Below, in pieces: positions 1 through 45,605 of a stretch of 64,000 nucleotides of DNA. The translations under genes were made by a program, and so were the position numbers. Under the pieces are notes generated by a model. The model made no database searches and was not told the origin of the DNA. It saw nothing but the letters and a program-made list of their open reading frames with translations. This DNA is from Gautieria morchelliformis (taxonomy: Eukaryota; Basidiomycota; Agaricomycetes; Gomphales; Gomphaceae). The DNA lies in contig WHVA01000008.1 in NCBI GenBank assembly GCA_015179125.1, forward strand, positions 434,001-498,000, written 5' to 3'. Numbering within the stretch: the stretch's first letter is position 1; every line of letters begins with the position of its first letter.

Positions 1-2
1 TG

Positions 3-287
3 CTTGAGCCAGCAGTTCCGAATACAATTCCAAATCGAGAACAACCTCCGCCTCCGCCAGTCATCGTCGACGGAGAACCGGAATATGAGATCTCAGAAAT
101 TCTCAACTCAAAGCTCGACAGACGATACTGCTGCCAACTCCAGTACCTAGTCAAGTGGGCAGGCTATGAAAACACCGACGAAGAGACCTCGTGGATTTCC
201 ATCATGGAACTAGACCACACCTCTGACCTTGTCTCTGATTTCCACAAGTCATATCCTGATAAGCCTGGCCCCATTTCCGCGCCCTAG
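3..287 (+). CDS. Ty3/gypsy integrase C-terminus with chromodomain (partial)
   Basis: The frame is open from the window edge to a TAG at 285-287, giving about 94 residues. It has a proline-rich linker followed by a chromodomain. EYEISEILNSK opens the first strand, YLVKWAGYENTDEETSW is the classic core with its aromatic residues, and a C-terminal helix follows (ELDHTSDLVSDFHKS). In chromoviruses this domain binds modified histone tails and steers integration toward heterochromatin. The ending, with a short PISAP tail, is like that of other basidiomycete gypsy polyproteins. The upstream part of the polyprotein is outside the window. Confidence 0.9.
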   Translation, partial: LEPAVPNTIPNREQPPPPPVIVDGEPEYEISEILNSKLDRRYCCQLQYLVKWAGYENTDEETSWISIMELDHTSDLVSDFHKSYPDKPGPISAP

Positions 288-317
288 TCATTTCCGACCT
301 CATTTCCGATCCCCCAT

Positions 318-325
318 CGTTTTCT
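318..325. repeat. Left 8-bp target-site duplication of the KDZ transposon
   Basis: The sequence CGTTTTCT directly precedes the left inverted repeat and recurs exactly at 11,159-11,166 after the right one. An 8-bp duplication is characteristic of KDZ-type transposons. It fixes both ends of the element. Confidence 0.9.
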
Positions 326-1092
326 CACCTGTAGTGCCCGGTTAGTCATACCTTCTTAGCTAGGGTAACTGGCCTGGTTGCAGAGGCTAAGTAGGTATGT
401 TTTGCAGAGAGGACCAGTACTACGAATAATACTACGTATAATTCTTACTTAGCTACAAAATGTGACTGTGGGTGAGCTATGGACACCTGTCCTACCCGTC
501 GGAACCACATCCAGCGTCTCGGGCCACGTCTCAACTGTTCACGTGACCATCTCCAGCGACTGCCACGTCGCATCAACCACTGCCGCCGTCGTTGCACGCA
601 GCGAGCTCAACCGGAAACTCTCCACAGCTCCAATATTTCCGGATTTTTTAGTGAGTTATGCCTCCTTAAACCTCCAGTATCAAACCCTCTTCCATTGATG
701 CATTTGCTTCACCTGATGCTGCCAGTCTGTCTTCCCCCGTGCAACGTGCAACGACATCTTGCAATTCTTGAAAGATCTCACTGAAGGTTTGTGTGTAACT
801 CTATTGTCCATACCGACACTAACCAACCTGTAGGTATCATTCGCAAACACGCCATGTCAGCCCTTCTCATTTTTATCACAGAGAACGCCGCACTTCCGCA
901 TGGCGGGCCCCAGGACTGTGTGCTGGGGAAGCTCGATCTCGTATTATTTGGCATCACTGGCACACTTCATGGTTATTACAGTGACAATACGCAGGTATGT
1001 TTTCTATTGTGTATCACCATCGCTGTTCCGCTAGCTTACACATTTTGAAGACATTTGCGCTCGAGGTAATTTATATCCTCTCGGCCATTATC
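326..1092 (+). repeat. Left terminal inverted repeat of the KDZ transposon
   Basis: About 767 bp match the reverse complement of 10,392-11,158 with only scattered substitutions. The match ends inside the third intron of the TIR-borne gene, where left and right sequences diverge. TIRs this long are unusual for a cut-and-paste element; here they hold coding exons. Confidence 0.88.
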
Positions 1093-1232
1093 ACTTATTG
1101 ATGCTGTAGCATCACGATCTGGCAGGCGGCACATGGATATTTCGACTTTTGTGACATCCTAAAGGCGGGTCTTATCTACGATGAATATACCAAGTTGCCC
1201 ACAAATGATCGAGTTCGCGTGAAATGTGAATA
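449..1232 (+). CDS. Spliced gene fragment carried in the left TIR (unrecognised protein)
   Basis: Four exons can be chained in one frame. The first runs from ~449 to 651 (VGELWTPVLPVG... to ...STAPIFPDFL), the second from ~731 to 784 (SVFPRATCNDILQFLKDLTE), the third from ~833 to 993 (IIRKHAMSALLIFITENAAL... to ...GYYSDNTQ). A 15-nt exon (TFALE) follows, and the last exon runs from ~1,126 to 1,232, ending ...RVRVKCE and a stop. Introns start GTGAGT, GTTTGT, GTATGT and GTAATT, end in AG, and one has a clear CTAAC-like branch site, so this is real spliced coding sequence. No start codon is seen in frame; the first exon opens right after an AG, so the 5' end was probably cut when the fragment was captured. 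I do not recognise the family. The last exon lies outside the TIR and is absent from the right copy. Confidence 0.55.
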
Positions 1233-1250
1233 AAATCTTTCCGATGCATT

Positions 1251-1870
1251 TCACGTTGGGAGACAAACAATGCATCTAGTCCCAAGGCCATTGCGCTTAA
1301 ATACCGCTTCCCAGCTGAATTCTTCAATCACCAGATCATCAGAATCTGTCCATGCATAGAGGTCCCATGTATCGTCTGTGTCGCCATCATCCTCACTTGG
1401 GCTGGCCTCGCCCCGAACGTCTACCTCCTCCTCATCGCAATCCGCATCAGACTTTACCCAATCCAATACCTCGCTATTCTGCTCGATTTCAGCGGTAAAG
1501 AATCCATAGCAGCATGCGATGGCTACTCCCTGAATATCCTCCATCTCTTCGTAAAACCAGGCCTCACGAGCCAGGTCGTCAGAACGGCGCCGAGCAGCGA
1601 CTTTTATTACAAGGGATGGAAGAGTGTACTGGTTGTTGTCGTCAATCCTAAGTGGGTACACCGAACCCACTCTGCCATAGCCGAGTCGTTCCGGTTCCAA
1701 TGAAACGTGGAGACAGGGGTTACCTGGAGGCGGGAGGTTGGAGGGTGGACGAACAGGTAGAGAGTCCGTCCTCATCGTGCGCGGAACCTCAACGCAGGCG
1801 GGAGTGTGGTGCAGGCCCTGCGCCTTGGTACTCATGGTGAGCGATGCCATACACGAGCCAGGCTTGCGTG
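1251..1870 (-). pseudogene. Captured 5' part of a fungal kinase-like gene
   Basis: The minus strand reads about 200 codons from ATG codons near 1,850. Its core contains LGYGRVGSVY, a glycine-rich-loop-like segment, then LPSLVIKVAARRRSDDLAREAW with the VIK lysine expected of a kinase N-lobe, and FYEEMEDIQGVAIACCYGFF. An acidic stretch and DDLVIEEFSWEAVFKRN follow. This matches my recollection of a large Agaricomycete family of kinase-like proteins. The catalytic loop and C-lobe are missing: the similarity stops near 1,275, and the frame ends at 1,251 by chance sequence. It sits tail-to-tail with the TIR-borne gene and looks like a host gene start caught by the transposon. Confidence 0.6.
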
Positions 1871-2070
1871 GTGAGGAGACCCCGCTTTCCACTGTCTCTT
1901 AGCGGGCTCGGCCAAGTCATTACTGACATTGGAACAATGCTGGTAAGGTCGCTCCAGCGTCTCGAGCCACGGTTCAACTGTTCACGTGACTGTCTCCAGC
2001 AACTGCCACGTCGCATCAACCACTGTCGCCGTCGTTGCACGCAGTAAGCTCAACCAGATTTTTTTATGAG
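1750..2070. repeat. Scrambled internal duplication within the KDZ element
   Basis: Two blocks lie side by side. 1,750-1,945, read on the minus strand, matches 9,760-10,030: the 3' end of the HMG-box-like gene plus the start of the kinase-like gene. The copy here lacks about 100 bp present on the right. 1,946-2,070 repeats 505-660 of the left TIR (the ELNRKLSTAP exon region) in the same direction, with a short deletion. The arrangement suggests a second transposon end was once placed here, or gap repair copied end sequences inward. Confidence 0.7.
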
Positions 2071-2150
2071 CTATGCCTCCCTCTCGAACCTCCCGTATCA
2101 AACTTAACTCAACCATTCACAGTACCGTAAGTAAGCATGGGGGCCTATCC

Positions 2151-5100
2151 ATGAGTACACATAAAATCGGGACGCTACAACGTGCTCAGGAACAAGACGC
2201 TGCCATGGAACGACGCTTACAATATCTCAAAGGTACGTATTTACATATCTACATCATTGACATCTAACGGTTTTTTAGGCCTTACTCATGGGGAACGACG
2301 GCTTCTCCAGGACGTCGAGCCCTACACTCAGGAGCAGGGGCGGCATGTGCTCTCTGATGGGATGGGTGATGATGGTGATGAGGTTCAGTTGGATGATCCG
2401 GAGTGGGAGAATATCGACGCTAGTCATGCGGGAGGGGAGTATGAAGCCTTCCATGAGCTGAGCATGCAGATGAATAAAATTACCGGCAGGTGCATAAGAT
2501 ATATTGAACAACCAGCAAATCTAATGTTACATGTAATCAGGCATAGCACAGCTGACTACCGCACGCGCCGTGACCGCCTCCGCCGCATGGACGAGGCATG
2601 GAAGGAGCATTATGATGGGATATGTGACGCATTTCTTCGGTGAGAGGCTGAAGGGTCGCCTCCATGCTCTGAAGACAATGTCAAGCATACTGTGAGCATC
2701 CTGTGCTTCGATATTCTGAGTGAGTCACCGGGCCAGGAATCCACCTTCATATTAATGTTTACATTATCTTATTCTCTCAGGTCAGACCTTCCGGACTTTT
2801 CAGGCCAATGCTGCAAATGAAAGTGTGAATATCACACTTGCACGCCATGGTTATATCAGGTCCTCCCCCTTCCAACCTGCTCTTGCCTTCTCCTTCTCTG
2901 TCCTGGCCTTGTTCACGCGACTGAGTGCTCGCTGTCCCCAGCTAAGTGTCCAGGCATTTGTCCGGGCACTTTGTGATATCCATAATGTAAGTTAACTTGG
3001 CCTATTTGACTTCTACCTGTTGATCCACAACCTTAGGTTCCTTATCGTCCCTATTTGCGTAACCAGACCCAGGTAGCTATCGATGTCTACTATGAAACTC
3101 AGCAACATGTTAGTGCACGCCTTCAGCAGGCGCTGTCACGTGACACAGACAACTGGTGTGTTCAAAATGCATGCGTCGCTTGTACCTATGTTTTGGCAAA
3201 CGAGCAGCCCCTCAAGTACTCGACGCTCACTACGATGGATGCCAATAACTCCCCTGAAGCGTGTGGAGCGAGTACGCCATGAGCGCAACTCTGTGGATGC
3301 TGGCATCACAGTGGTCAATGTAGAACGAGAAGATGGCCGCTTTTTGTCCAACAGGCACTGCCTAAGTCCCATGGAAGTGGACAAGTACAAAGATGAGGTA
3401 AAAAAACGGCTTCCGCAATCAGATAGAGCTGTAAGTCTGATCTCCCTCTGTTTGTGAATTACACTAACTATATTTCTAGTTGAGCTCAGATGCGAAAGAC
3501 AGCCAGGATACCGCAACTGCTACCCCTGTAGATGGTGAAGACAGTGCCACTCCCTGTGTGGACCGATGGAAGGCTGCAGCAGAATATTCAAGCAAGTCTA
3601 TGTGGGGTGTGTTTGATGAAACTGGAGTTTTCGTTGCTCTATGCCGCCATGGCACCCTCCTCCTTATGTGTGACATGATAAAAAGTGGAGAGTTGTAAGT
3701 CATATACTTCTTTTCCCATATAACTACTTGATCTGCGACCAGGGCTAAGTATCCCCTTGCCATCATCAATCGGCTTATGGAGAACTTTGGGCCCCACCAG
3801 CTCACCGGCTATGACATAGGTTGCAGCTTTGCAAAGATGGCTAATAACACAGTGATTACAGGGCCCGAGATTCGCAAGTGCGGTCATGAATTTATATGTG
3901 GCTCTTTTCATGGCCATGCACACTGTCGGCTCTGCCAACTTGATTGGCACCTACTCTACCGGGAAGGGTGTGGTTTAGAAGATTTTGAAGGGTGTGAGCG
4001 TGCTTTTTATGAATCAAATGCACTTGCTCGAAGGACCCGATATGCTAGCAAATTTCATCGGCAGCAGGAAATTCAGCAGCATTTTGAACGATGGAATGCT
4101 GACAAACATGAGACTCTGAGTAAGTGCAAAGTTTATTTCATACAAATTCCCAGTTAACATTCATGTAAGGTCGGTTCTTCTATAACAATTGGACACAGGC
4201 ATTGCGTAACCTCCAGACTCTCCCAGACCAACTTGAAGAAGCTAAACACATGCTTGGTATCACATCTGACAGTGTGTTCACCGAGTGGAGACGTGAAGAG
4301 AAGGCATACCTTATCAGTTTGGAGAAGGAACCACCGGCCGACATTCTGAAGATCCAGTACTTGGAGACTCTGAAGAAACTACATGCTGCAGAGTAGGTGG
4401 ATGTTTTTTGGCACTTGTCAGCAACTCACCATAGCTGCAGGAAGGCTCTGGATGCAATATCCAGTCAGTGGCGCCACACACCAGCTACTAACCTTCGGCA
4501 GGTCACATTTTATCGTTCAGACTGGCAAAGTACAAGTTGGATCGAAAGTGCACGTATCTCTGGCCTTGACAGTGTCCTTCTCCTTCAAAAAGTGGTGGAT
4601 GACCTGGAGATCAAGCTTGATATTGACCGTCGATGGGAGCCAGGCAGTGAGGAGTGGAAGCATTGGGAGGACTACCTCGTGAAGCGTGAGTATCACCGAG
4701 CAGTCGATGTACTGGAAGGATTAGTGGTGTCTCGACTCTTTGAACTCACCAAGATGATTCAGTCTGAAACAGGTAGGTAGATTAGGTTGTTTGCATTCAG
4801 CCTGGGGTACTAAGCATGTATCAGGTTATAAATTGAGGGTAAAGATTGCAAATGCCCTTAAAACTCGGTCAGCAGCAATCCGGACAGTGATCATGCACTA
4901 TAATGAAGCAGCAATGAGGTTATCTACACCCCGGCCACCACTGGATACTAAAACAGTCTTAGAATATGTGTTCCTCACTGAATTTGACTTGCTTCGGGAC
5001 TCGCGGCATCAAGTTCAAGACAGACCATGGTCTCGGCCTGCGGAGCGCATAGCTATGACACACTGGTTCAAGATACAGCGGTCGCAGGAAGAGTTGGACC

Positions 5101-5519
5101 GAGTTGTTATTGAAACTTGCCGCCTCAAAACATGGATGCATGATGAGGAGGTAGCACTACAAAGGGCCATTGAGAATCTGGAGGGAAATGACCCCTCACT
5201 TGCCCATCAGCTGCAGAAGAAACTGACCTACGTTATGGCAGTAAATGAAGTCCATAGAGCTATGCTCAAACGCATCCAGAGATCACCCCTTTGGAGTGGT
5301 CCACAGGGTGTGGGTGTGCACCTCCACCCTGAAGCCCAGTCTGAGTCTCTGATGAGTCCTGACCAAGAGAATGAGGATGAGGTAGTGGAGCATGACCTCA
5401 GTTCTGAAAATGGGGAAAATGATGATGACCTAGGGGAAGATGACAGCCAGACAGGCCCTGGAGCAATGTATGTTGTCTGGAATGTATTGGCTGACAGCAC
5501 CCAGCCACACATGAATTAG
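2151..5519 (+). CDS. KDZ transposase
   Basis: This gene encodes the DDE-type enzyme that moves the element. Exons begin at ATG 2,151; clear introns are 2,233-2,278 and 2,490-2,540, with more near 2,640-2,780, 2,987-3,036, 3,430-3,480, 3,697-3,742, 4,121-4,170 and 4,772-4,830. Family landmarks in order: RRLQYLKGLTHGERRLL, a RRMDEAWKEHYDGICDAFLR helix, ITLARHGYIRSSPFQPALAFS, the first acidic motif MDANNSPKRV, then WGVFDETGVFVALCRHGTLL, CDMIKSGELAKYPLA and GYDIGCSF, and last FICGSFHGHAHCRLCQLDWH with GLEDFEGCERAF. The C-terminus is acidic (DQENEDEVVEHD). One in-frame TAG lies at 4,394-4,396 after LKKLHAAE, with the matching frame continuing; it is either a nonsense change or part of an intron I cannot place. 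The + strand position just inside the left end is typical. Confidence 0.88.
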
Positions 5520-6180
5520 TTGTATGATCTCAAATACACATGTTCTTCTCATTGTATGCATACACTGACATTGTGTGCATTGTGTATTAAGTGTGCCTAC
5601 AGTTCTCAAGTTTGAACATCAACCACAATATGTAGCCAGTAGGGATCTGAACTGATGATTTAGAATTGCCTCACCCCCAGAGGAATGAACACACCACAGA
5701 TTGATGGTTGCTACTCTGGTGAGGCAGACTTTGACGCCCTTTCAATCAGTACAACTGACATTTGATGTGGTAATTGAATTCCATACCTCTGATACCCAGT
5801 CAATATTTCATGTGCATGCTAAGCATGCAATTGAATAATGTACCGGAAGCAGTGCACTGGCTGATCAAATTAATAGAATGGAGAAACCATGTAAGTACAT
5901 GGCATATATGCAATGTGACACGGTCACTGTAGGACAGTCAACTAATACAAGTAGAGCCTTTGTGGTAGATTTGAGTATATACATGGATATAATAGTATGA
6001 CAATCGGCTAAACAAAAGTAGAGATCCTTACACACTCCATGCTCATGACGCTGTTAGTCACTAGTGGCACGTACACAGGTCGAGCCATTGCGCACAAGAG
6101 GCGCGTGAGAATCGAAAATAAATATGTCGGTCCCATTACAGTACAGTAAAGTAATATTGTAGACATAGTATGTCTTGGTG
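5520..6180. other. KDZ internal spacer, no gene seen
   Basis: This ~660-bp AT-rich stretch lies between the convergent 3' ends of the transposase and the minus-strand cargo gene. No ORF or repeat could be supported; it probably holds the two transcripts' 3' ends. Confidence 0.6.
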
Positions 6181-7978
6181 CTAGCAAATATCAGGCCGAC
6201 CCTTGGCAGGCTCTACTCTGCCTTGGACTTTGGTCTGTGATGCAGGCTTGGGCTTCGCAATGAGGAACTGATCCATTTTCCCTGTCTTCGTACACAACGT
6301 CTCCAGCACCGCATGGCGCTGGTATATAAGTCGCTTGTGCAGCCTGTTGATGGCCTCCTTCGTTTTGGTGCGATCCATGTGCGCCGCCCGATCATCCACT
6401 AATGACTCGGAGGACTAAGGATTTAGTGTTGAACTAACATAAAAAGTTTAATAGCATTAAGTACATACCAGTCTTCCCGTTCATCTGCTCGAGTGCTTCA
6501 TACACATTTCTAGTCAAGACACTGCCGCTGCCGTTGGCATGGCGTACGTACGCATCGACGTCCGTCATGGCCACTGAGAGTATGTTGATGAGGGCGCCAA
6601 GGTGTTGGTAGTCTGTGTTGGGCGTCACTCCGAGTTTCACGACGCCAGGAGCGGTCTTGGAAAATAAATCGAGCATCAATTGGATAGGCGGGACATCTGA
6701 ACAGGTGTGGAAGGTGTGCAGGTCACCTCCGAGCATCGCCCATGCGATCCAGCGCCGTACACGCCCTGAGCTAGCGCTACACCCAGGCAGGAGCGCAAGA
6801 AGGCGTAGCTGGAGATCAGGCGTGAATGCCATTTCTTTCGTGACGCGCAAGACGAATTTACAGGTATTGAGCTCGACGGTGCGGGTCACGGTTGGGCTTG
6901 CGAGAATGGCTTCGATTGCGGAGACGGCGTCTTGCTGGAGTTCGGGGACCGCAGACGGGTCTAGGGAGAGGAGAAGAAAAATAGATACAATGGAAGGTAT
7001 TGCCGTGGGGTCTATGCTTTGGGAGCTAGCTCAAACAAAGTGTCAGATGTAAACCGAGGCAGAGTAGTACAAACACATTACAGACCAACTGAGCACCTCA
7101 AGCATAGAAAAGAAACGGCACAACATCTCCGCTTTCAGTTCCAAACTCATACCCGTGGGAGACACCATGGCATCCGCCTCAGCTCCAAACGCTGCAGCGA
7201 CTTGCGTATTCATGCCGAGCTTGATGAGTGGTGTGAGGAGGCGCGTGGGGCTAAGGTATGGACGGGCCAATGCTGCCATGGAGCAAACCTCGCGATGCAA
7301 CAGCAACAAAGATCGATAAGCTGACAGCGAGAGATCTCGACATGCCGTGGACATGGCTGCATTCGCAAAAGTAAGCAACGGAAAGGCAATAACATAGAGG
7401 GCCTACCTGCGGCAAAGAGCCAGTCCAAAAGTGGAGCTGAAATTGGGGCAGATGCGAGAGCGCCAGAATCCAGCAGATGGGAGGCAACCTCATACTCTGA
7501 CATAGCAACCATGAACAATTGAAATATCAAACAAAATGTGTCCTATACCCTTGCGGTTCATCGCATCGTTCAAGGCAGTCAAAAGAGGGTGGCAGGAGTT
7601 TGGCGCCACCAAATCGGGAACGGTGTCATTATCACCCTGCTAATAAAACATTTTAACGCTAGTGTGAGAACTCATGAGGAAGGTGGTCACCTTGACGTCT
7701 TTACTCCAAAACAAAACATCACTTTGCTTCTCCTCTGTGTTGCTCTTCTTTTTGCGATCGCTGTTCAGAATCTTTCCTGCCGCTTTGGCCCCCTTCTTAC
7801 CAAGCCATTCTTTCTCATCATCATCCTGTCCAGTTGACAAGGTGGCCGACGGAGGCGTCGAGCTGGCTGTACGGCTGGCCCTGTCCGAACCATGGTGCGA
7901 CGGCTGCGGGAGAGAGTGTGTGTCAGTGCGGGGAGGAAGACTCGGAGGGCGGCGAGGCGCGTGCGTGCATATGGGCAT
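6181..7978 (-). CDS. Multi-exon cargo gene, unrecognised helical protein
   Basis: Read on the minus strand, at least six exons chain in frame. The first (7,978 to ~7,685) is low-complexity and basic, ending WLGKKGAKAAGKILNSDRKK...FWSKDVK. The next reads GDNDTVPDLVAPNSCHPLLTALND... to MNRK, then EYEVASHLLDSGALASAPIS... to LLDWLFAA, then AMSTACRDLSLSAYRSLLLL... to FFSMLEVL. The exon 6,960-6,469 (DPSAVPELQQDAVSAIEAIL... to EQMNGKT) and 6,414-6,181 (SLVDDRAAHMDRTKTKEAIN... to GRPDIC, stop) complete it. Introns are 48-60 nt with GT-AG ends. The product is rich in alternating leucine helices, like a helical-repeat protein. A distant likeness to the SMC5/6-linked CANIN/SLF2 type crossed my mind but is unverified. 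Nothing looks broken. The first ATG of the first exon was taken as the start. Confidence 0.6.
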
Positions 7979-8416
7979 GGGTGATCACGAATTGGCCTGC
8001 AGGCAGGTAGTTACAGGAGTTTAGTATCATACCTGAGGGTGGGCCATGTGCCTTGCCGCAAGGCAAGGACACCATCTCTGGCTATAAATGTGCTTCAGAA
8101 AGGCCGTCTGGCGGTGAAATATAGCTATCGGAATGTATAACATACCTTGTTCCTACTGAAGGGATGAGTGGGGCTAGTATCGATAGAGATTGAACGCACG
8201 AACAGCCGCAGGACTATAGCACTGAGCACCATCCGAGCCAGTGAGTGTCTATACAATAAATAGTCATAACCTACGTACCACTGTATATTCAGAGCCTGCA
8301 GACAGGCAAGGTTGATGGATGTCGCTGAACTACCGTAATAAAGGGCTTACAGTAAACGCAGTGAGAGTTTTTTCTGAGTCACATGACCCCAAACATTGTT
8401 TTTTCTTCTCTATCCA
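7979..8416. other. Divergent intergenic region inside the KDZ element
   Basis: About 440 bp lie between the divergent minus-strand cargo gene and the plus-strand HMG-box-like gene. No gene is seen; it is the natural place for a shared bidirectional promoter. A possible extra upstream exon for the minus gene (ATG near 8,047 followed by a GT-AG intron) is out of frame with a downstream stop and was not used. Confidence 0.5.
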
Positions 8417-9868
8417 ATGCTTACCACCCTCCAGCGGCTTGCTGTAAAATGCAAGACACTCCGTCAAGCTCATGTGCAGCGAAAGAAGCGTACCCAGATA
8501 TCCCGTGCCGAACGAAGGAAATGTGCCCTCCACAGAGCTGCCAAGAGGGCTGCCATAGAAGCCGACATTAAAGAAGCCTGGGATGCACAGGACAAATTGG
8601 CCAAACATTTGGCCATGAAGCATGGCATCAAGGTTGAGTCCATGCAAGCTAGGCTAACACGTCATGCTACGACTAAGTATGGTCGTCATACGCGAAAGGC
8701 TTCGTCCTGGAATGCATTTCTTCATTTTCACAGCAAGGAAGTCAATCAAGGTATTTACGTGTATGACATCAGACATGGGCAGCTACTTATGACCATTTCT
8801 CAGACCTGCCACCTGGCCAAAAGGCACGGCTTGTTGAGTTACAGAGCATGGGTAGTCGCGCAGCATGGCAGAAACTCACCAAAGCCGACAAAGAAGATCT
8901 GGTCAAGATACTAGAAAAGACAAGGGAGAGGTCAGCAAAGGGGATACGAGGACATGGGCTCGCAGAGATAAGCGATGTAAGACATGCGCTCAATCGAATG
9001 GAGGAAGAGGCAACGGTTTCATATATAATATACCTTTATCAATGCACTGACATCGTGTCTTGTAGCTAAAGGCTTTGCGTGCGCGATGCACAACATCGTC
9101 TTTAGCTGTGACTGTTCCCTCGAAGCCTGGGCTGGCCATTGGACCATCATATTATGCTGATGAGGTGTCAGAACGCTTCATGGAGATGGTGTATGGGGTG
9201 TCATGGATAGATTTTGTGACGAAGTTCAATGGTTTTGCAACTGCAGGGATCCGAGGTAAGCACATGATAGGTTTCAACCTAAAGCAATGGCGGCTTCCCA
9301 TGACTTGACAGGTGTGGGCAAGAACCAGAATGAAAGGGTCTGTATTTTGAAGACACACTGTGTCAGGGTAATCAGGAACGTACTCCGTAAGTCATGGCAC
9401 ATGTTTGTGACGCCGGCTCACATGCAAGGACCAGGGCAAATAACTGGGGATCCAGAAGCTGAGATGTCATATGCAAGGTATGAAAGTGGCATTGTAGACC
9501 GTTACCAGGTGGTCATGGAAGGATGGCCACTGGAAGGATATATCAGAAGTCCATGCAAGATTGGTACTATGAAGGCATTAGAGAGGCTGACCAATGCCCT
9601 TGAGGGCAGCAAAGATGTTGCACCAACATGCCGGTTCCGCAGACTTTCAGACAAGGAGTATGCTGCGCACAAGGTAGGCCGCGAAGCGAACAGCGGTGCA
9701 GGCAATGATCGCCCTCGCAAGGAGCATGCCGATAAAGGGTTAGCACGGAGACCTTGTGCCAATGTCAGCAATGACTTGGCCGAGCCCGCTAAGAGACAGC
9801 GGAAAGCGGGGTCTCATGTCAAGAGCAAACATATAGTTGACAGTAGCGAGAGCGAGCATGAGAATTGA
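8417..9868 (+). CDS. Basic, HMG-box-like KDZ-associated protein
   Basis: Exon one starts MLTTLQRLAVKCKTLRQAHV and is strongly basic and coiled (RRKCALHRAAKRAAIEADIK). It then reads SSWNAFLHFHSKEVNQ and, after an intron at 8,751-8,810, DLPPGQKARLVELQ, AAWQKLTKADKEDLVKIL and ISDVRHALNRMEEE. The WNAF...W.KLT..DK pattern resembles an HMG box. Later exons read LKALRARCTTSSLAVTVPSK... to FNGFATAGIR and, after an intron at ~9,255-9,311, VGKNQNERVCILKTHCVRVI and a tail ending ...DSSESEHEN and TGA. Intron calls are by eye. From memory, proteins of this build are common in Agaricomycete genomes and often sit near transposons. A DNA-binding role assisting the transposase is inference. The 3' end of this gene is duplicated, inverted, at ~1,880-1,945. 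Confidence 0.6.
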
Positions 9869-10391
9869 GCCAGAGTAATTACAAAGATTCTATAATTTTA
9901 AAATTCTAGCTGACTTACGACCACCATGCGAGCCTGGCTCGTGTATGGCATCGCTCACCATGAGTACCAACGCGCAGGGCCTGCACCGCATTACCGCCTG
10001 CGTCGAAGTTCCGCGCACGATGAGGATGGACTGGCCAACGATGGGGAGCACAACACAGGCGGCGGCGTCAGGCCCAGCCCACAAAGCACCGGTGGGATTT
10101 CCGGGCACGTCCTCGCAGAGACACTCGGTTGTTCGGAACACGGCTTTCTGTTCAGCGGCGGACAGGTTAGCGTGGAGGGGGAATGTTTCGGTCGGTCCGA
10201 GACAAGGCGAGCTCTTCTGAGAGTCAATACACTGTGCTGCCATATGCGGTGCTCCAGGTACATCAACTCCTGCGTTACGTTGCGTATGCATCCTCACGAC
10301 CCGCTAGTTAATTACTCACATGCCCACATGTCCAGATGTTCCGATGGAATACTTGATTCCTTGAGTGCGAAGGAAGGCTTAAGACAAATAA
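9869..10391. other. Right subterminal region: second copy of the kinase-like gene start, coding on either strand unresolved
   Basis: The plus strand from 9,945 reads MASLTMSTNAQGLHRITACV and on to EVPRTMR, matching the start of the captured kinase-like gene on the left, then diverges into unrelated sequence. The opposite strand is also open (10,297 to 9,890) and protein-like, with GPDAAACVVLPIVGQSILIV then RGTSTQA, and lies downstream of the minus-strand TIR gene. Sequence alone does not say which strand is the gene. Confidence 0.4.
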
Positions 10392-11158
10392 GCGATAATG
10401 GCTGAGAGGATATAATTACCTCGAGCGCAAATGTCTTCAAAATGTGTAAGCTAGCGGAACAGCGATGGTGATACGCAATAGAAAACATACCTGCGTATTG
10501 TCACTGTAATAACCATGAAGCGTGCCAGTGATGTCAAATAATACGAGATCGAGCTTCCCCAGCACACGGTCCTGGGCCCCGCCATGCGGAAGTGCGGCGT
10601 TCTCTGTGATAAAAATGAGAAGGGCTGACATGGCGTGTTTGCGAATGATACCTACAGGTTGGTTAGTGTCGGTATGGACAATAGAGTTACACACAAACCT
10701 TCAGTGAGATCTTTCAAGAATTGCAAGATGTCATTGCACGTGGCACGGGGGAAGACAGACTGGCAGCATCAGGTGAAGCAAATGCATCAATGGAAGAGGG
10801 TTTGATACTGGAGGTTTAAGGAGGCATAACTCACTAAAAATCTGGAAATATTGGAGCTGTGGAGAGTTTCCGGTTGAGCTCGCTGCATGCAACGACGGCG
10901 GCAGTGGTTGATGCGACGTGGCGGTCGCTGGAGACGGTCACGTGAACAGTTGAGACGTGGCCCGAGACGCTGGATATGGTTCCGACGGGTAGGACAGGTG
11001 TCCATAGCTCACCCACAGTCACATTTTGTAGCTAAGTAAGAATTATACATAGTATTATTCATAGTACTGGTCCTCTCTGCAAAACATACCTACTTAGCCT
11101 CTGCAACCCGGCCGGTTACCCTAGCTAAGAAGGTATGACTAACCGGGCACTACAGGTG
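10392..11158 (-). repeat. Right terminal inverted repeat of the KDZ transposon
   Basis: This is the reverse complement of 326-1,092, ending exactly CCGGGCACTACAGGTG. In the best-compared 230 bp I count about five differences from the left copy. Confidence 0.88.
10438..11033 (-). pseudogene. TIR-borne gene fragment, right copy
   Basis: The same exons as in the left TIR are present on the minus strand: VTVGELWTPVLPVG, PRATCNDILQFLKDLTE, IIRKHAMSALLIFITENAAL, then GYYSDNTQ and TFALE. Changes relative to the left copy include GPQDC to GAQDR and LFGIT to LFDIT. The final exon found on the left (AAHGYFDFCDILKAG) is missing, because the similarity ends within the preceding intron. Splice sites are kept, so the two copies were duplicated as DNA. 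Confidence 0.55.
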
Positions 11159-11166
11159 CGTTTTCT
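11159..11166. repeat. Right 8-bp target-site duplication of the KDZ transposon
   Basis: CGTTTTCT is identical to 318-325. Chromovirus spacer sequence resumes immediately after it. Confidence 0.9.
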
Positions 11167-11256
11167 TACAGTTCTCAAGTCATTGTCAAAATCCGATTAA
11201 TTTCCACTATACTATTCCCAACATTTCAAGAAATTATCTACAAGACCCCTCGACCC

Positions 11257-12504
11257 CTACTCCTCCCTCATCGTTTCCCCCTCGCCCTCGTTCTCCGCTT
11301 CCGGACCTTCTTCCGCATGGCCTATCTCCACGTTCGTCAACTCAGTCTCCACCCTCGCTTCCGCCCTTTGGCTCGTACCTGCTTCCGCCTCGTTCTCCTG
11401 CTCCTGCATGCGCACCTCCATGCGATCCCGGAGCATGTCGTTCCGCCACCGGAATTCCCGTTTGAATTGTTCCAAAACCGTCGACATGATGGTCATTTGG
11501 TTTTGGAATGACAGCAACTGCTGTTCCTGGACCACCGCCATCTCCGCAAGGAGGTTCCAGATCCGGTGTTGGGTTTTCTGGATGCCCCTCAACGAGTCGG
11601 CAATGTCAAACAGCGTCGACACCATGGAGAAGTGGTTGAGTACCGCTGTCTCTGAGTTTCCAGTCACCAGAAATCCTTCCGCGACCTTTTTTCCGCTCGG
11701 TCCCGGTTTTGACTTAGGGGTTTCAGGCCCCTTGGTCTCGACCCTGCGCCTTTTCCTTTCCACCCTCGCGGCACAACCATCCATGATGCAGCGCCTCTTC
11801 TTGTCCCGACACTGTTCGCAGGAGGTCTCCAGCAGATTCTTGGACCACACGCAATCCCACCCCTTGGTTTCGCATGGGTCGCACGGGGCTTTCTCTTCTT
11901 CATCATCGTCCCTCATTTTCCGTTTCTTTGTAGTGGGATTTTCTGGCCCCAACTCCCGCAACTCCAGTATCCGGGCCATCTTCTCCTTCCGAGCCTGCTG
12001 GAACCCGTCCGCCCTCCGTTTCCGCTCCGCAACGATGTTCGGCATGGAAGCAACTTCCTTCTGCTTCCCCTTGCTCTCTGGAGGCGGTGTGCTTTCCGCA
12101 GTGCTTTCCGCTTCCGACTCCCCCTCGGATTCTATGACCCTCTGGCAGTTTTTTCCGTGAGCTCCGGAACACCCCACACGACATTTCCGACTCACCTGGG
12201 ATTTCCCTGCCTTTTCCGCCGCGGCCTTGTCCTCTGCAGCTTTTTTGGCCGTGTCCCGTTTCGGCTGTTCCTCGCGGAGGCGCGACTCCTCCTTGCGGCG
12301 TTTACAGTCCCGTTCCACCTTCTCCTTCCACTCCTGTTCCTTGCGCTCCTTCTCCTTGCGCTCCTCCTCCAGACGCTCCCTCTCTTTCCGCGTGGCTTCC
12401 TCTGCCTCGCGCTTTTCGGCCAGCTCCTTCTGTGCAAGCATATCAGCAAAGTGCTGCTTCATCTCGGCACTGGTCATTTTGGAGAAATCGATTGGAGTGC
12501 TCAT
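11257..12504 (-). CDS. Antisense accessory ORF of the chromovirus, coiled coil plus cysteine cluster
   Basis: This uninterrupted 415-codon frame runs opposite to pol, between integrase and the 3' LTR. The N-terminal ~100 residues are a highly charged helix (repeated ER/EK/KER blocks, likely coiled coil) after MSTPIDFSKMTSAEMKQHFA. A Ser/Glu-rich linker and a basic stretch (TTKKRKMRDDDEEEK) follow. A cysteine cluster comes next, CDPCETKGWDC...CEQCRDKKRRC (residues ~205-240), spaced like a fungal Zn2Cys6 binuclear cluster, with a basic tail KRRR. The C-terminal third is helical and very acidic. Its role is unknown; binding DNA or the element's own particle is a guess. Related antisense ORFs occur, as I recall, in other basidiomycete gypsy elements. 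Confidence 0.75.
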   Translation of the reverse strand: MSTPIDFSKMTSAEMKQHFADMLAQKELAEKREAEEATRKERERLEEERKEKERKEQEWKEKVERDCKRRKEESRLREEQPKRDTAKKAAEDKAAAEKAGKSQVSRKCRVGCSGAHGKNCQRVIESEGESEAESTAESTPPPESKGKQKEVASMPNIVAERKRRADGFQQARKEKMARILELRELGPENPTTKKRKMRDDDEEEKAPCDPCETKGWDCVWSKNLLETSCEQCRDKKRRCIMDGCAARVERKRRRVETKGPETPKSKPGPSGKKVAEGFLVTGNSETAVLNHFSMVSTLFDIADSLRGIQKTQHRIWNLLAEMAVVQEQQLLSFQNQMTIMSTVLEQFKREFRWRNDMLRDRMEVRMQEQENEAEAGTSQRAEARVETELTNVEIGHAEEGPEAENEGEGETMREE

Positions 12505-12625
12505 GATGGATCAAAGCGAAGACACGTTTGTTTCCCGCCTATCTTTCGAACTCCGACCCATTTGTTCACAGGTCACGTGATTCCGACTTGTGGTCTCGCA
12601 GGGCTCAACCTTAGAAGGGAGATAC

Positions 12626-20927: not shown

Positions 20928-22705
20928 TTAGGCAGTGTCGGCTCCTAAGGCCTTAATTAAGGGCACCCTTTTGGTACGGCCGCTGCTGACGCCATCGTTG
21001 GAGAATGTGATAGATGATTGATTGTCAGTGAACACGGGAATGGGAGTAAAGTCGTGTTTGAAATCTCGTCTGAGCCTGATCAGCCATATGCCCTCCGCCG
21101 TCGCGAATGATCCCGCCACTACCTCTGATTCCATGGTCGATCTACTGACCATATTTTGTTTCTTCGAAGCCCAGGAGATGGGTGTGCCATTGAAGGTAAA
21201 CACCCAGCCCGTCGTGGACTTCCGGTTGTCTCGATCTCCTGCGAAGTCCGCATCTGTATAACCCACCAGATTGTGAGCGAAACCTATTGCCCCGTCACCT
21301 TGACGTATGTGATCCCATACTCCCTCGCATTCAGCAGATACCTCACGATTCTCTTTGCGGCCTCCCAGTGAGTCACATTGGGTTTGGATGAGTACTGTGC
21401 GCACTTATTAACAGCGTAGGATATGTCGGGTCGGGTGGCCACTGCACAATAACTGAGGCTGCCAATGATGGATGCATACGCGAAGTCGATGATTTCTGAG
21501 GGTGTTGTAGAGGTGCGTAACTCGATGTTAGGATCCATTGGTGAATTCATGGCGTGACCGGAAGTTATCTCGAATCGTTTGGCGATGGTATTGATGAATG
21601 TGTTCTGTGATATGTGTATGGTGCCGAGGCTTCGATTTCGAGTGATCTGAATGCCGAGTAAGCGCATTGGATCCTCCAGGTCCTGTAAGTCGAAGCTCCC
21701 CCTGATGTCCGTCACCATCTGCTCCATTGCTGACTTTGAGGTTGACGTGAGCAGTCCGTCGTCCACATACCACCCCGCTATCTCCATGCTGTCTCCTTCC
21801 CTGAACCTGAAGAAAATGATTTTGTCCGCCTCTCCCGCCCTGAACCCGATCCTCTCCATCTCCCTCTTCAACGTTCCGTGCCATACCCTCCCCGACTGTT
21901 TCAACCCATATATACCCTTGTTCAACCTGCATACCATCTTCTCTTTCCCTGGCTCTATGAACCCCTCCGGCTGTCGCATGTAGACGTCGTCTTCCAATTT
22001 CCCGTTGAGGTATGCTCCCTTCACGTTGACTTGTCGTAGTTCTAGATCGTATTTGCAGGCGAGTGCGAGGATGAGTCGGATTGACATTAGCCTGATTGTC
22101 GGTGAGTAGGTTTCCTGGTAGTCGACTCCTGAGACCTGTGAGTACCCTTGTGCGATGAAATGAGCTTTGAATCTGTCGACTTCTCCTGTGTTATCCCTCT
22201 TCACTCTAAACATCCACCTGCTTCCCACCATGTTCACCTCCTCTGGCTTCTCCACTAGATCCCACGTGCGGTATCCCATCAACATCTGGTATTCCTCCTC
22301 GCATGCCTTTCTCCATTTCTCTGCATTCCCTGACCTCATCGCTTCCTTATAGCCTCCCGGCGCGTCCTCTGCTAGTACGACAAATGCCCTCTCGCTTTCC
22401 TCCAGTTCCATCCTCCCATGTGCCATGGCAGCTATTTCCGTGAGTAATGCCACATTTCTCTTCCCTCTCCAATACTCTGTATTCGACGGATCCATCCATG
22501 GTCCCCTTGAAAATTCCTTCCGTGCCATTTCTGTGTTTTCTTCCGTACCGTCTTTCTCTTTCCTTTCGCCCTCAATTTCCTCCTTGCTTCTAGGTTCGGC
22601 TTCTGCGTCGATACTCTCTGACTGTGTCTCCACTCCTCTTAAACCTATCATCTCCTTGATAATTTCCTCCCTCTCCTGCAACTCCTCTTCGTCGTCCTCG
22701 AGCAC
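20928..22705 (-). pseudogene. Copia reverse transcriptase and RNase H
   Basis: The RT region starts in an acidic linker (EEELQEREEIIKEMIG) and passes through EYQMLMGYRTWDLVEKPEEV, GSRWMFRVKRD and QVNVKGAYLNGKLEDDVYM. PEGFIEPGKEKMVCRLNKGI then YGLKQSGRVWH follow, and the catalytic-box region GWYVDDGLL. The thumb and connection region reads LLGIQITRNRSLGTIHISQN. RNase H motifs include VGYTDADFAGDRDNRKSTTG and TMESEVVAGSFATAEGIWLI. The element ends shortly after. Related basidiomycete copia elements share this layout. Confidence 0.85.
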
Positions 22706-22794
22706 TACGAGCAGTGGGATTGTGTCGTCGTCGTCTGCCGTCTTGTCATGATCTGGTTCTGGCCGTTTGACACATCTCTGGGTTTCGCCGTTGA

Positions 22795-23898
22795 TTAATC
22801 AGAGAGAAGGGGTATCGCCGTCATCAATGAGTTGTATCGTGGTGCGTTCGATGTGTTTAACTCGTCGAATATCACGTCTCTAGCCTTGATCAGCGTCCTG
22901 GTGTGTGGTACCCACACCTTGTATGCCTTCGAGTCCTCGAAATACCCCGCAAAAATTCCCTCCACTGACTTAAAATCCCCTTTCTTGCTCGTCGCCTTCG
23001 GTAGCAGTGTCCAGCATCTTGACCCATATATGCGTAACCAGTCAAGTCTGGGTTTGCTTCCCCATAACGCCTCGTATGGTGACATGCCAAGTCTGTGGTG
23101 CAGTAATCGATTTTTGACAAAATTCACCATATCCACAGCTGATACCCAGAATTTATTTGATAGGTTCGCGTCGTGTTGTAGGGTAAGTGCACCCTCCTGT
23201 AGGGTTCGATTGTATTGCTCGGCTACTCCGTTATGCTCTGGAGTGTGAGGGCTCGTTGTCTCGTGGATAATTCCGAGCTCACTGCACAGGTGTTTGAACT
23301 CTCTTCCCATATATTCCCCTCCGTTGTCTGACCTTATATTCCTCACATCCGCTCCCCTCTGCTTCTTTAGCCGTGGGATATAGTTCTTGAATGACTTGGT
23401 AATGGTCTGACATTCCTTATTCTTCAGGAAATTGATGCGGGCGTATCGTGTGGTGTGGTCAATCCAGGTCACGCAGTACCTGTAACCCCCGATGGACGTT
23501 TCGAAAGGACGGCATAGGTCTGACGAGATGACATCCCCCATACTCTTCGGCAGTTCCTCGACTTGCTTGAACGGCGCTCTCCTGTGCTTCCCGTGTGGGC
23601 AGCTCGCGCATTGTCCGGTCTTCCGCTGAGGGTCGAGATCTGGTAGCCCCGTGCCAGTGTGTTTCTTTATCATCTTCTCGATAGTGGAAACGGCTGTGTG
23701 GGCTAATCTGTGATGCCATAGAGTCAGTTCGTCGGGCTCTTTGGTGCATGCCGCTATCTCGGACTCATCCTTTGGGGACGGTTGAGCCATGTAAGCGAAT
23801 AGGTTGTCAACCTTTGTTCCCCTGGCTATGATCTCCTCCCCCATCAGTAGCGACATGTCAGTTTTACTGAATATTATGTCAACGTTGGCCACCGTCAT
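22795..23898 (-). pseudogene. Copia integrase
   Basis: An HHCC zinc-binding N-terminus is visible (LTLWHHRLAHTAVSTIEKMI and CASCPHGKHRRAPF). The catalytic core follows, with DVISSDLCRPFETSIGGYRY, SDNGGEYMGREFKHLCSELG and the TTSPHTPEHNGVAEQYNRTL box that holds the acidic triad. The C-terminal GYFEDSKAYKVWVPHTRTLI segment is typical of copia integrases. Confidence 0.85.
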
Positions 23899-41400: not shown

Positions 41401-43127
41401 GTTATCGGCCGAGTGCCGACTCGGATGTGTCGTGCGGCACAGGGACAGGGACCGTGACGGGGACGGTTGCGGGATGGGGTGAGCGGAGAAATGCGGGAGG
41501 GCGAGGTGTGGAGGGCGTGGGTGGCGGGTGGGGTAAGATGCAGCGCAGGTGTGGAGGGGTCCCGCGTGTACTGGCCAGTGGCACAGGAGCGTGGAGGCCT
41601 TGATCAGAGGTGCGTGTATGTGTGCCGTGGACGCGGAGAGGTCCGGACATACTATGGTGGACGGGGCCAGAGGCGCATGGGGTGTCAGGGCTTGGACAGG
41701 TACGTGTCGAGGTTAGTGTCGAGGTTAAGAGCAGGCTGCGATTGGAGGGCAGCAGGGAGAGGTGGGTGGTACCACTGGGAGGAGAGCGGAACTGTGCGGA
41801 ATACGTGGGAAGAGGCGCTGAGTGGCAAACGTGAAGACAGAAACTGCCAGCGGAAAACGTGAAGAAAGAAACTGGGCGGAAAGCTTGACGACAGAACCAC
41901 TATCGATGTATGTGAACAGGAAGCTGCACATTCGATTCGACCGCGGACACTCACCCTCGCTATGAGTCCCACGTCCCCCCATGTCCACCTCGTCTCTAAA
42001 AATGTATAGGCATTCACTCTTATCCCAGCACACAAAATCTTCCCCCACCTCCACGCTCGCCCTTCTCCACAACTCGACGCCCCACTTAACCATGGTCACG
42101 AACGCTTCACGTCACACGCTGCGCATCGCCAGCTTCGCACGATAATCGATAAGTTCGCACAAAACTCCGCGTTGTAAGCACGTACTTCAAATGCAAAGGT
42201 ATTCCGCATCATGCATCTTACGGCATTCCAACAGATCTCCCACTTTTATTGTACTCCGCCCTTCGTCCACCTCCAGCTGAGACTTAAAGCAGTACGCCGC
42301 GACCTCCACCCCCACCTCCACCCCACGTCATAGTATGCTTCTTAGCCTTATTTTGGGAGCGGCACCCACGCATGGCAAACGCGTTTTGCGCGTTTTGAGA
42401 GTTCGAAGAGCAGTGCGCGTCCGCGACAAGGTCGCACTTTGCCGTACCGCCCGTCCACGCCCACACCTCGTCACACCCAGCACACTTCCCACTTCGCCCA
42501 TCGCCCATCGCCCATCGCACTTCCCACTTCGCACACCTCCTGATCCCCACTGTCCGCGGCACCCTCCGCCTTCCTGTTCAAAAGTAAGTAAGTACAAACC
42601 TCCATGCAGTCCACAACCACCCCCAAGTCCGACTCGCCGAGGTCCCACGTCACGGTCCCACGCTCCGTCCAGGTCCGCGTCCGAGGGCATTCGTTCATAA
42701 TCACTCTGGGAATGAATGCTGCATTGCAGTAGGCAAGCGGCATTGCCCGCACCACGTTAAAGTTAAAGTTAAAAAAGTTAACTGTATACTGCGCGTCCAC
42801 GACTCCACGGTCCTTCGCCCCTCGCGCGCGGCCTTCGTACACCTCCAGTGGACCAGAGCTGTGCACGTGGTACCTGTCACCACTTGTTTTGCACAGGGCG
42901 TTTGTGGGTTTGTATTGTGAATGGGGTGTGGGTTTCCCATTGAATGGGGGTGGGTTGAATCGAGACTCGAGAGCTGGTTGTATTGAGCTGGTGTGATTGT
43001 GGTTTCCATTGAGCTGGTGTAATTGTGGTTTCGATTATTGAGTCTGTGTAATTTGGCTTTCCATTGCATTTTACTCGGTGGATGAGCTTACATTGAGTTT
43101 ACATTTGCTAGTACTTATTTAGCCGCA
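41401..43127. other. GC-rich intergenic DNA, no convincing gene
   Basis: Overlapping frames are open on several strands because of high GC, and none shows a conserved motif. Short tandem motifs occur: GCCCATC x3 near 42,495, GTTAAA repeats near 42,760, and a TTTCCATTGA-like motif repeated through 42,990-43,080. Confidence 0.5.
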
Positions 43128-43660
43128 CATGGCCACATCATCGACTAAAACACGAAAAGCACGCCCCCACCGCCCCACCGCAGAGCGATCCCCCAACATA
43201 CGCAGGCACTCCATCGACGTCCAGGCGAGACTTCCCGTCCTCCCGCGTCCACTGGCGGTGCACGCGACGATCCGAGGTTCCCCCGCCCCGCCGCCGCCCT
43301 GCCGAGACGCCCAGTTACGACACTCGAGTCTAATTAGGTTTGCCATTGTAATTAGGTCTGCATTGACTTGGTCGGGTCGATGCGCCTAGCCATTGAGTCT
43401 ATATATAGCCCCGGGCGCGTGGCCACATCATGATCAGCGACCAGAGCCAAATATGGACGCACGCCCTGGCGCACGGCCCCACTGCACACCCGCTCTACCG
43501 TGACAGCGATGCCAGCTACGGATGGATGCCAACATACGCAGGGAACAAGGCCCTTCCCCAGACGTCCCGTTCTCCCGTGTCCAGTGCACCACCCTCCGGG
43601 AATGCCCCGCGTCGCCGCACACCCGACGGGTAGCGCCATGAGTCCATCCAGCAACAACTA
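43128..43660 (+). repeat. Diverged direct duplication of ~200 bp
   Basis: 43,128-43,330 and 43,425-43,650 share, in order, GTGGCCACATCAT-like starts, an AACATACGCAGG block, and a CCGTCCTCCCGCGTCCA-like block (the second copy reads CCGTTCTCCCGTGTCCA). The two copies are separated by ATTAGGT-type sequence. The duplication is old; function is unknown. Confidence 0.5.
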
Positions 43661-44994
43661 CACCCGCGCACAGCCACGCGCAACTGCTCCCGACCCAACT
43701 GCTCCCGCTACCGGCTACCCATACCCCCGCCCCCCGGTGCCGACACCGCCCGGGTAGCACCCGCCCACGCACCCGCACCCGCGACAAACCCACCCGCCAG
43801 CCGCGCCGCCGTCGGGCCCCGCGCCGTCGCAGCCCCGCAGGCACGAACAACCCCCGGGTCCGTGCCCGTGCGTCGGTCGCGGAGCGGTCCCGCGGCCCGG
43901 GCGCCGGGCGCCGCCGGCGCATCATTGGCACCCGCATCCGCACAGCACGTGCGCATAGGCGGAACGCTGTAGCCATTAGCCGTCGCTACTGAGTTATCCA
44001 GTGTTCTTGTGTTGGTTCAATAGAGTTACCGTTAGTCGACGCTTGGCGGTGGGCGCGGTGCGTCGATCGGGCCTCGCGCGCGTGTGGGGTTAATTAGGCG
44101 GTATTGTGGTAAGTGCAGATCAGTGATGGGGACTGTGCCGGGGCGGTGCCACGTGTGTGCCTGTGATGCGGCGCGTACGGTAGGCTGAATGGTCATCCGG
44201 GGGCCCGTGGCCGGGCGACAGGCGGGTGGGCGGGAAGACAGACAGGCAGGAAGACAGACAGACAGGTGGGCGGGCGGGCAGACAGGCGGACGGGGGACGG
44301 GGACGCGCGCGGCACGCACGGCGCCCGTGCAGGGCTCGACGTGCGGGTCGTCTGTCTGGTCGTGCGATCGCGCGCGCACCTCCCGCAGGGGCCGTTGGAG
44401 GTCCGCGCCATACGTTGGGACGCGCGTCGCTGTGTGTTGCGTGTCCGTATGCGGGGCGCGTCGCGACCCCGGTGGGTCGCCCCGGGGTTGCGCTTGGCCA
44501 AGGGCCGGGGTGTTGCGACGCACCGTTGGGGCTGTTCATGTGCGTCTGGCACGGCGCGCGATGACCAGGCGACGGGCAGGCACGGCGTGAGGGTGCGCGG
44601 GACGGGCTTGGACGTGGGCGTGGGTGTGGACGTGGGCGTGGGCGTATACTGGCGTCGAGCGGCACCTTCGAGTTATGCGGGCGCCTGCACACTACACCAC
44701 GCACGCTGCACGCTGCTACGTTGGACCTTGTCGGATAACCATGCGCCTGGGACGTGTACTTGGCACGCACGCACGCACGTCGTGTAGTGCGTACTCAGGA
44801 GTCAGGACGGGGTGACATGTCGACATCCTGGCACGACGTGCTGAATGTCATCCGACGCATTTGAGGACTAATAGCTAACTATAGCTGTAAATACAACTAT
44901 TAAGCCACGGCACATGGCACATGGCACGCGACACGCGACACGACCCTCGCCATGGTCCCTACCTTACCCCTGCCCCGCACCCCTGCCCATCGGG
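43661..44994. other. GC-rich DNA with simple repeats, no gene supported
   Basis: 44,219-44,300 is a GACAGACAGG/GGCGGGCG simple repeat and 44,610-44,645 a GTGGGCGTGGGTGTGGAC-type repeat. Multiple overlapping long frames on both strands lack motifs. Confidence 0.5.
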
Positions 44995-45605
44995 CGCACC
45001 CCACGCTTGGCTCTAAGGCATCGGGCATCATCCCAACTTGGATGTGACGCGCCGCAGATCCACGCCGTGCCCGGAGCGCATCTCACCCAACGCTTGGCTG
45101 TAACGCATCCGAGGCGCGGAGTGGTACGCGCACGTGCCCACGCCGGCCGGGCATGATCCCAACTGGGATGCGACGCGGCGGAGAGCCACTCCGTGCCCCG
45201 GAGCGCATCTCACCCACCGCTTGGCTCTAACGCATCGGGCACGACGCCAGCTCGCTGGAGTGGCACGCGCACGTGACGCCGGACGGGCATCTGGCCCAGT
45301 AGCCCAACTTGGATGTGGCGCGCCGCAGATCCTCCGTGCCCCGGAACGCATCTCGGAGATCGGGCGCACCCAACGCTTGGCTCTGACGCACCGGGCAGGA
45401 CGCCAGCTGGCTGGAGGTGTGCGCGCACGTGACGCCGCGCGGGCTGGCCCAGCCCAACTACTCTTGGATGTGACGCGCCGCAGATCCTCCGTGCCCCGCA
45501 GCGCATCGACTCGATCGGGCCCCCGACGCTCCCTCGGATCTCCCGCGCGGGCTGGTTGGAGTGGTACGCGCGCACGTGGCACGCCTGGCGGGCAGGTGAC
45601 GTCTC
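44995..45605. repeat. Tandem repeat of ~130-155-bp units (about four copies)
   Basis: A block containing AACTTGGATGTGACGCGCCG and CAGATCC, then GCGCATCTC and CGCTTGGCTCT recurs at ~45,037, ~45,165, ~45,307 and ~45,461. Unit lengths grow from ~128 to ~154 bp through small indels. The long frames across it (e.g. minus 45,582-45,028) are a by-product of the repeat. No coding function is supported. Confidence 0.7.

Follow-up and report, generated by a model that had tools for sequence, protein, structure and literature searches.

KDZ elements are abundant in fungi, and in those parts of the literature covered here most of what is known of them concerns the transposases and TET/JBP genes. KDZ1 of Cryptococcus neoformans, described in the available part of its report as about 11 kb long with 241-bp terminal inverted repeats (TIRs), 8-bp target duplications and CxC1 and KDZ domains (PMC12810828), is by description the closest element to the one reported here. 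In Pleurotus ostreatus, 36 KDZ copies were reported, the intact ones preceded by the cysteine cluster CxC2 (PMC7641404, available part). The present analysis was done on a stretch of 64,000 nucleotides from Gautieria morchelliformis (assembly GCA_015179125.1, contig WHVA01000008.1, positions 434,001 to 498,000 of the forward strand). This stretch is called the window, and coordinates are window positions unless another contig of the same genome (C203 and so on) is named. We are confident that the window contains a KDZ cut-and-paste transposon of 10,833 bp, built of a two-gene core and captured host pieces and lying as an insertion close to the 3′ end of a chromodomain long terminal repeat (LTR) retrotransposon. 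At this locus a KDZ element can be seen with both ends complete, with its target duplications and empty sites, and with a family of relatives.

The element occupies positions 326–11158, between two identical copies of CGTTTTCT at 318–325 and 11159–11166 that form the target-site duplication, and its termini read CACCTGTAG...CTACAGGTG. The left TIR (326–1099, forward strand) and the right TIR (10387–11158, reverse strand) were aligned over 774 columns, of which 754 are identical, 18 are mismatches and two are gap columns, in agreement with an initial annotation, made from the letters alone, of TIRs of about 770 bp that were about 97% alike. The same annotation had called exact ends with 16 perfectly matching bases; the termini do match, and the perfect stretch is in fact the outermost 44 bases of both TIRs. 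A repeat scan of the window also recovered these arms, split into pieces that are 98%, 97% and 93% complementary, and a tandem-repeat scan found no array inside the element. TIRs and an 8-bp target duplication, both features of the KDZ superfamily, are thus present together.

The left flank (1–317, forward strand) is the chromodomain end of an LTR retrotransposon (PF00385, E 4.4e-7), and the right flank (11167–12510) is the same retrotransposon continued. The two flanks were joined at a single copy of the duplication into a 600-base query, which was searched against the window's own 122-Mb genome only, and 40 of 474 candidate matches were scored. All 40 places gave a one-piece match at 87–94% identity (24 covering query positions 1–600, the other 16 covering 558–599 of the 600 bases), so that in every scored copy 11167–11466 directly continues the left flank. 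Five empty junctions were read, and all five carried the site once with no insert, as TGTTTTCT in three (C559, C138 and C249) and as a small variant of it in two (C218 and C36). Because the matches are in one piece and the site stands once without the insert, both flanks come from a single family of retrotransposons and the intervening 10.8 kb are an insertion. Both the proposed nesting in a chromovirus and the empty site predicted from it were therefore borne out, within one genome. A reverse-strand open reading frame (ORF) at 11257–12510, 417 amino acids long and lying past the chromodomain end, contains a cysteine-rich stretch and matched nothing in Pfam.

Between the ends lies a KDZ transposase gene of several exons (2151–5519, forward strand, limits set by eye), as the initial annotation had proposed. 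The KDZ domain (PF18758) was found on two exons at E 3.2e-18 and 2.8e-41 (66.6 and 142 bits, cut-off 26.6), and an N-terminal CxC1 cluster (PF18802) at E 2.2e-6 (28.2 bits, cut-off 26.9). The element belongs to the KDZ superfamily, and its structure is not due to chance: the TIR has at least 44 matches on 25 contigs of the genome. Relative to the transposase on C223, the frame shifts near 3253–3256, where tblastn splits the match into frames 1 and 2; a one-base assembly error in a run of C would look identical. At 1953–2058 (forward strand) a 106-bp module of the TIR recurs, 91% identical to 510–615 and also found in the related copy on C582. This module lies directly upstream of the transposase gene and may hold a promoter or a transposase-binding site. 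Next to it, positions 1763–1937 (reverse strand) hold inverted copies of 9754–9815 and 9922–10032, that is, of the 3′ end of a second gene and the sequence beyond it; these too are common to the C582 copy.

A TIR search of the same genome (best 40 of 82 candidates) gave at least 44 places on 25 contigs, of which one, C203, carries a donor gene and not an element. About two dozen family loci were recognised. Among the 11 independent insertions of which both ends were read, the target duplication matched at eight of eight bases in 10 (the window, C231, C545, C737, C1004/C1054, C482, C437, C1015, C359 and C139) and at seven of eight in the remaining one, C654. In this tally C1004 and C1054 stand for one insertion; their elements (C1004:223513–228120 and C1054:14468–19074) have equal length and mutually reverse-complementary duplications, and are probably a single insertion represented in two contigs, as a duplicate or a haplotype. 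Left out of the tally were C330 (left end unrecognised), C582 (left end absent from the first 2,000 bases of the locus), C611 (left TIR truncated), C682 (a weak end-like match with five mismatches) and the loci with a single end read (C196, C302, C113, C274, C190, C243, C176, C415, C215 and a second end on C139). The eight bases outside the single end read on C113 and on C190 are also reverse complements of each other, and these two may likewise be a single insertion in two contigs.

In 10 of 12 end pairs (C1004/C1054 taken as one) the spacing between ends was 2.8–5.5 kb; the window and C330 (6.6 kb) fall outside this range. A second copy bearing a KDZ transposase lies on C582 and is 96.5% identical to the window copy across 3.9 kb of the transposase region. 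The left sides of C582 (locus L065, near 1200) and of C781 (locus L076, near 190) are cut by the same other repeat, which ends in GGTTATTTACA. A search for other full-length copies with the cargo had been proposed; among the matches listed no second copy in this genome had both TIRs and the complete cargo.

The inner part of the TIRs is derived from a host gene. A fragment of an M24 peptidase gene lies in the left TIR (830–1099, forward strand; 97.4% identical to C203 over 270 bp), and a longer version runs from within the right TIR to just past its inner edge (10324–10655, reverse strand; 97.9% over 333 bp). The ORF at 785–1048 in the TIR matched PF00557 (M24) at 25.4 bits against a cut-off of 23. 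The donor on C203 is a gene for an M24 peptidase (PF00557, E 1.9e-8 and 2.1e-21) adjoining a Syf1-type splicing gene (PF23233, E 5.8e-11). The captured piece holds exon and intron sequence, as read from the splice sites, and the capture was therefore from DNA. The TIRs had been described as coding, and they do contain coding sequence, but as a fragment of this peptidase gene. Compared with C203, two changes are common to both arms, a third site differs among all three sequences, and each arm has private changes; the pattern would be expected if the fragment was captured once and then copied between the arms. Most family matches include the outer 340–370 bp of the TIR, and members without the inner part match over only about that length. 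The junction at 1099/1100, where the M24 piece meets a piece of a multigene family, is common to eight other elements (C302, C437, C1015, C611, C482, C359, C231 and C196), and the remaining matches of the junction query begin at or after 1100.

The multigene-family piece occupies 1100–1763 (reverse strand) and matches a tandemly arrayed family on C1048, C13, C615, C602 and others. Window positions 1100–1260 are 98% identical to C1048 in DNA, and residues 46–204 of the frame at 1251–1898 are 94% identical to 380-amino-acid frames on C13 and C1048. The family looked kinase-like by eye, and a Pfam search of the 1251–1898 frame gave this no support. A further captured segment with sharp borders, 5755–7812 (reverse strand), holds most of a multicopy gene. 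Exactly this stretch was aligned at 91–94% identity in C580, C365, C389 and C1089, in all of which the sequence continues on both sides. It is also present in C781 at 96%, and parts of it are found in C142, at a second place in C365 and in C261. It is absent from C582, the closest KDZ copy, and none of the seven other contigs with the segment or part of it is among the 25 TIR contigs (matches listed in both searches). Adjacent to it, 7830–8020 (reverse strand) is a GH18-like (chitinase-like) gene fragment that is 93% identical in C582. The longer GH18-like piece of C582 matched four PDB chains annotated as chitinase, GH18 or endo-N-acetylglucosaminidase (E 0.01–0.14), and a Pfam search of the GH18-like stretch returned no matching model. 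A stretch on C793, 81% identical to 7830–8020, encodes DGIDVDYE, which we take to be the GH18 catalytic motif. The initial annotation of several cargo genes between the ends is supported.

The captured segment carries an open chimeric gene of six exons and 503 amino acids (6181–7978, reverse strand; exons 7978–7691, 7636–7549, 7496–7407, 7356–7086, 7025–6469 and 6398–6181) with GT/AG introns. Most of its first 55 residues come from the GH18-like stretch, which is read out of frame in exon 1. The same fusion is found on C781 with 252 additional bases (84 codons, in frame), and the relative on C580 has a longer 5′ part. Since C781 has 84 more codons and C580 the longer 5′ part, the window gene is a shortened copy. 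The description of an intact-looking multi-exon gene thus holds as far as the open frame over six exons, while the gene itself is a chimeric, 5′-truncated and shortened copy of a multicopy gene. Pfam and PDB sequence searches with it gave no convincing match, and a fold prediction for a single exon (198 amino acids) had a mean predicted local distance difference test score of 34.6. A suggested resemblance of the captured gene to CANIN/Nse6-type proteins gained no support from PF14816, but with the control silent as well the result does not disprove it.

Gene 2 (8417–9868, forward strand) was modelled as an open frame of four exons and 430 amino acids, and may have a further intron near 9387–9428. 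It had no Pfam match and matched PDB entries only at E 1.5. A suggested HMG-like appearance was likewise without support in the Pfam and PDB searches. A homologue of its last exon was found downstream of the KDZ gene, on the same strand and within 16 kb, at 21 of 39 KDZ loci; at 18 of these it lay within 8 kb, against a chance expectation of about 0.04. One of the 18 loci without a downstream homologue (C204) has a gene 2 match on the opposite strand. Gene 2 without a KDZ match was found on ten contigs, five of which are in the TIR list, and the C223 version of another gene 2 exon matched 10 places, all on contigs already with gene 2 matches. From this association, gene 2 is likely to be a partner gene of KDZ. 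The ratio of nonsynonymous to synonymous substitution rates (dN/dS) between the window copy and three close copies was about 0.50, 0.69 and 0.67, and under our exon model each of the three has one in-frame stop and indels. Another KDZ family is represented by two 8.0-kb copies that are 99.55% identical (C223:74271–82301 and C698 from 21593). Its elements have a transposase, gene 2, intervening ORFs without an assigned identity and TIRs of about 300 bp; the target duplication matches at eight of eight bases on C223 and at seven of eight on C698.

The element had been described as recently inserted, and this was not upheld. Dating by the 97% TIR identity was rejected: when a DNA transposon inserts, its arms are not both copied from a single template, and they can already differ beforehand, so their identity does not date the insertion. 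Of the differences between the arms, 15 are transitions, and 13 of these fall at CpG sites, although CpG is present in either arm at only 90 of the 774 columns (binomial 6e-11, and 4e-7 when only G/C columns are considered). Such a bias looks like the decay of methylated cytosines. The shifted transposase frame, the 96.5% identity to C582 in the transposase region and further small indels against that copy lend a recent insertion no support either. By contrast, with its 99.55% identity, the C223/C698 family looks to have moved more recently.

Elsewhere in the window, a block at 42001–50000 has 60–72% GC, against 37–52% in the rest, with long overlapping ORFs, and a zinc-finger-like motif was noted by eye at 48222–49391. 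Two long reverse-strand ORFs at 21287–23898 are copia-like by eye. ARAGORN found no tRNA gene.

The observations can be accommodated as follows. The core would be a two-gene unit of a CxC1 and KDZ transposase and the conserved downstream gene 2. The transposase would cut at the inverted repeats and join the element to 8-bp staggered sites, and the short relatives would have been moved in trans. Host gene pieces would be copied in as DNA, introns included, during repair after excision. Copying of the M24 piece from arm to arm could have lengthened the TIRs from about 340–370 to 774 bp, and captured pieces may then have been amplified along with the family. Finally, the joining of the captured segment to the GH18-like fragment would have produced the open chimeric gene of the window copy. 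A bolder version, which we consider a long shot, is that gene 2 encodes a standing second KDZ protein acting together with the transposase, and that the family shuffles host exons, writes them into its ends by arm-to-arm copying and distributes chimeric genes, of which one or more would be expressed and of use to the element. As a candidate second protein of KDZ transposition, the conserved gene 2 is concrete enough to be put to the test.

Several points weigh against this account. The left ends of C582 and C330 are unrecognised. Most short relatives may lack a transposase gene, a reading that rests on their end spacing. The multicopy source of 5755–7812 could itself be repetitive DNA and not a regular host gene. 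At the sensitivity of the search, no downstream homologue of gene 2 was detected at 18 of the 39 KDZ loci, and its dN/dS values, stops and indels suggest weak constraint among close copies. With its transposase frame interrupted, the window copy may not be able to move itself.

The cargo could instead consist of functional passengers under selection, an accessory set of the kind thought to exist in TET/JBP-bearing fungal transposons. The chimeric gene is indeed open over its six exons with GT/AG introns, its 252-base difference from C781 keeps the frame, and gene 2 is open in the window copy and tied to KDZ across divergent loci. A selected accessory set is nonetheless unlikely in our judgement, given that the 5755–7812 segment is missing from C582 and is truncated on its 5′ side relative to C580, that the M24 and multigene-family pieces are fragments, that no domain was recognised in the cargo by the Pfam and PDB searches, and that gene 2 has a dN/dS of about 0.5–0.7. 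Somewhat less probable still is a composite of unrelated nested insertions, in which the gene segments would be independent mobile elements that had inserted into a KDZ transposon. The sharp borders of 5755–7812 and its several copies elsewhere are what such an origin would give, and C582 and C781 have both been cut by the same other repeat. Four of the copies, however, run past both borders into shared neighbouring sequence, and because they continue across both, positions 5755 and 7812 are the limits of the piece taken and not of a mobile unit. No target duplication around the segment was seen by eye, and the source of the M24 piece was found to be one gene next to a Syf1-type gene.

Helitrons are not known to have TIRs or to make a target duplication. 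That a gene-capturing Helitron or another rolling-circle element made the structure is hardly credible, being contradicted by the 8-bp duplications, the long inverted repeats and the KDZ transposase, even though gene capture by Helitrons is known in fungi (PMC4289320, available part). The comparisons below are all with published accounts available in part.

KDZ1 of C. neoformans, compared by description, resembles the window element in its size, TIRs, 8-bp duplications and combination of CxC1 and KDZ. It differs in having TIRs of 241 bp against 774 bp here, and the available text reports neither host-gene fragments nor a second partner gene (PMC12810828). KDZ elements of P. ostreatus have CxC2 where this element has CxC1, and captured host genes are not mentioned in the available text (PMC7641404). 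The TET/JBP-carrying KDZ transposons of Agaricomycetes carry an extra gene, as here, and Zisupton makes 8-bp duplications (PMC12730594); a search of our element for TET/JBP gave no match, with the search control silent. The Kyakuja families characterised from Laccaria lack TIRs, have CA..TG termini and make 7-bp duplications (PMC12730594), in contrast to the 8-bp duplications and TIRs of the window element. In fish, KDZ/Zisupton sequence is joined to other domains such as the F-box, but these are protein fusions in animals, and the authors report no evidence that a transposon captured the F-box (PMC12062965). Apart from TET/JBP genes, the available parts of the literature covered contain no report of KDZ elements with captured host-gene fragments, which is weak evidence of novelty.

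The other comparison is with plant Pack-MULEs (Mutator-like elements, MULEs) and Pack-TYPE elements, which carry host gene fragments (PMC3310237, PMC8903248). Such fragments, with donors elsewhere in the genome, are present here (M24 from C203, and the multigene family of C1048/C13). Pack-TYPE elements belong to plant superfamilies and are described as non-autonomous, whereas the window copy is a KDZ element that has a transposase gene, though a broken one; its 2.8–5.5 kb relatives may be non-autonomous in the Pack-type sense. In plant MULEs, acquired sequence can become part of extended TIRs (PMC3310237). What appears to be new here is a KDZ element that has gathered several host gene pieces and has TIRs extended with one of them, a Pack-type behaviour known from plant Mutator-like elements.

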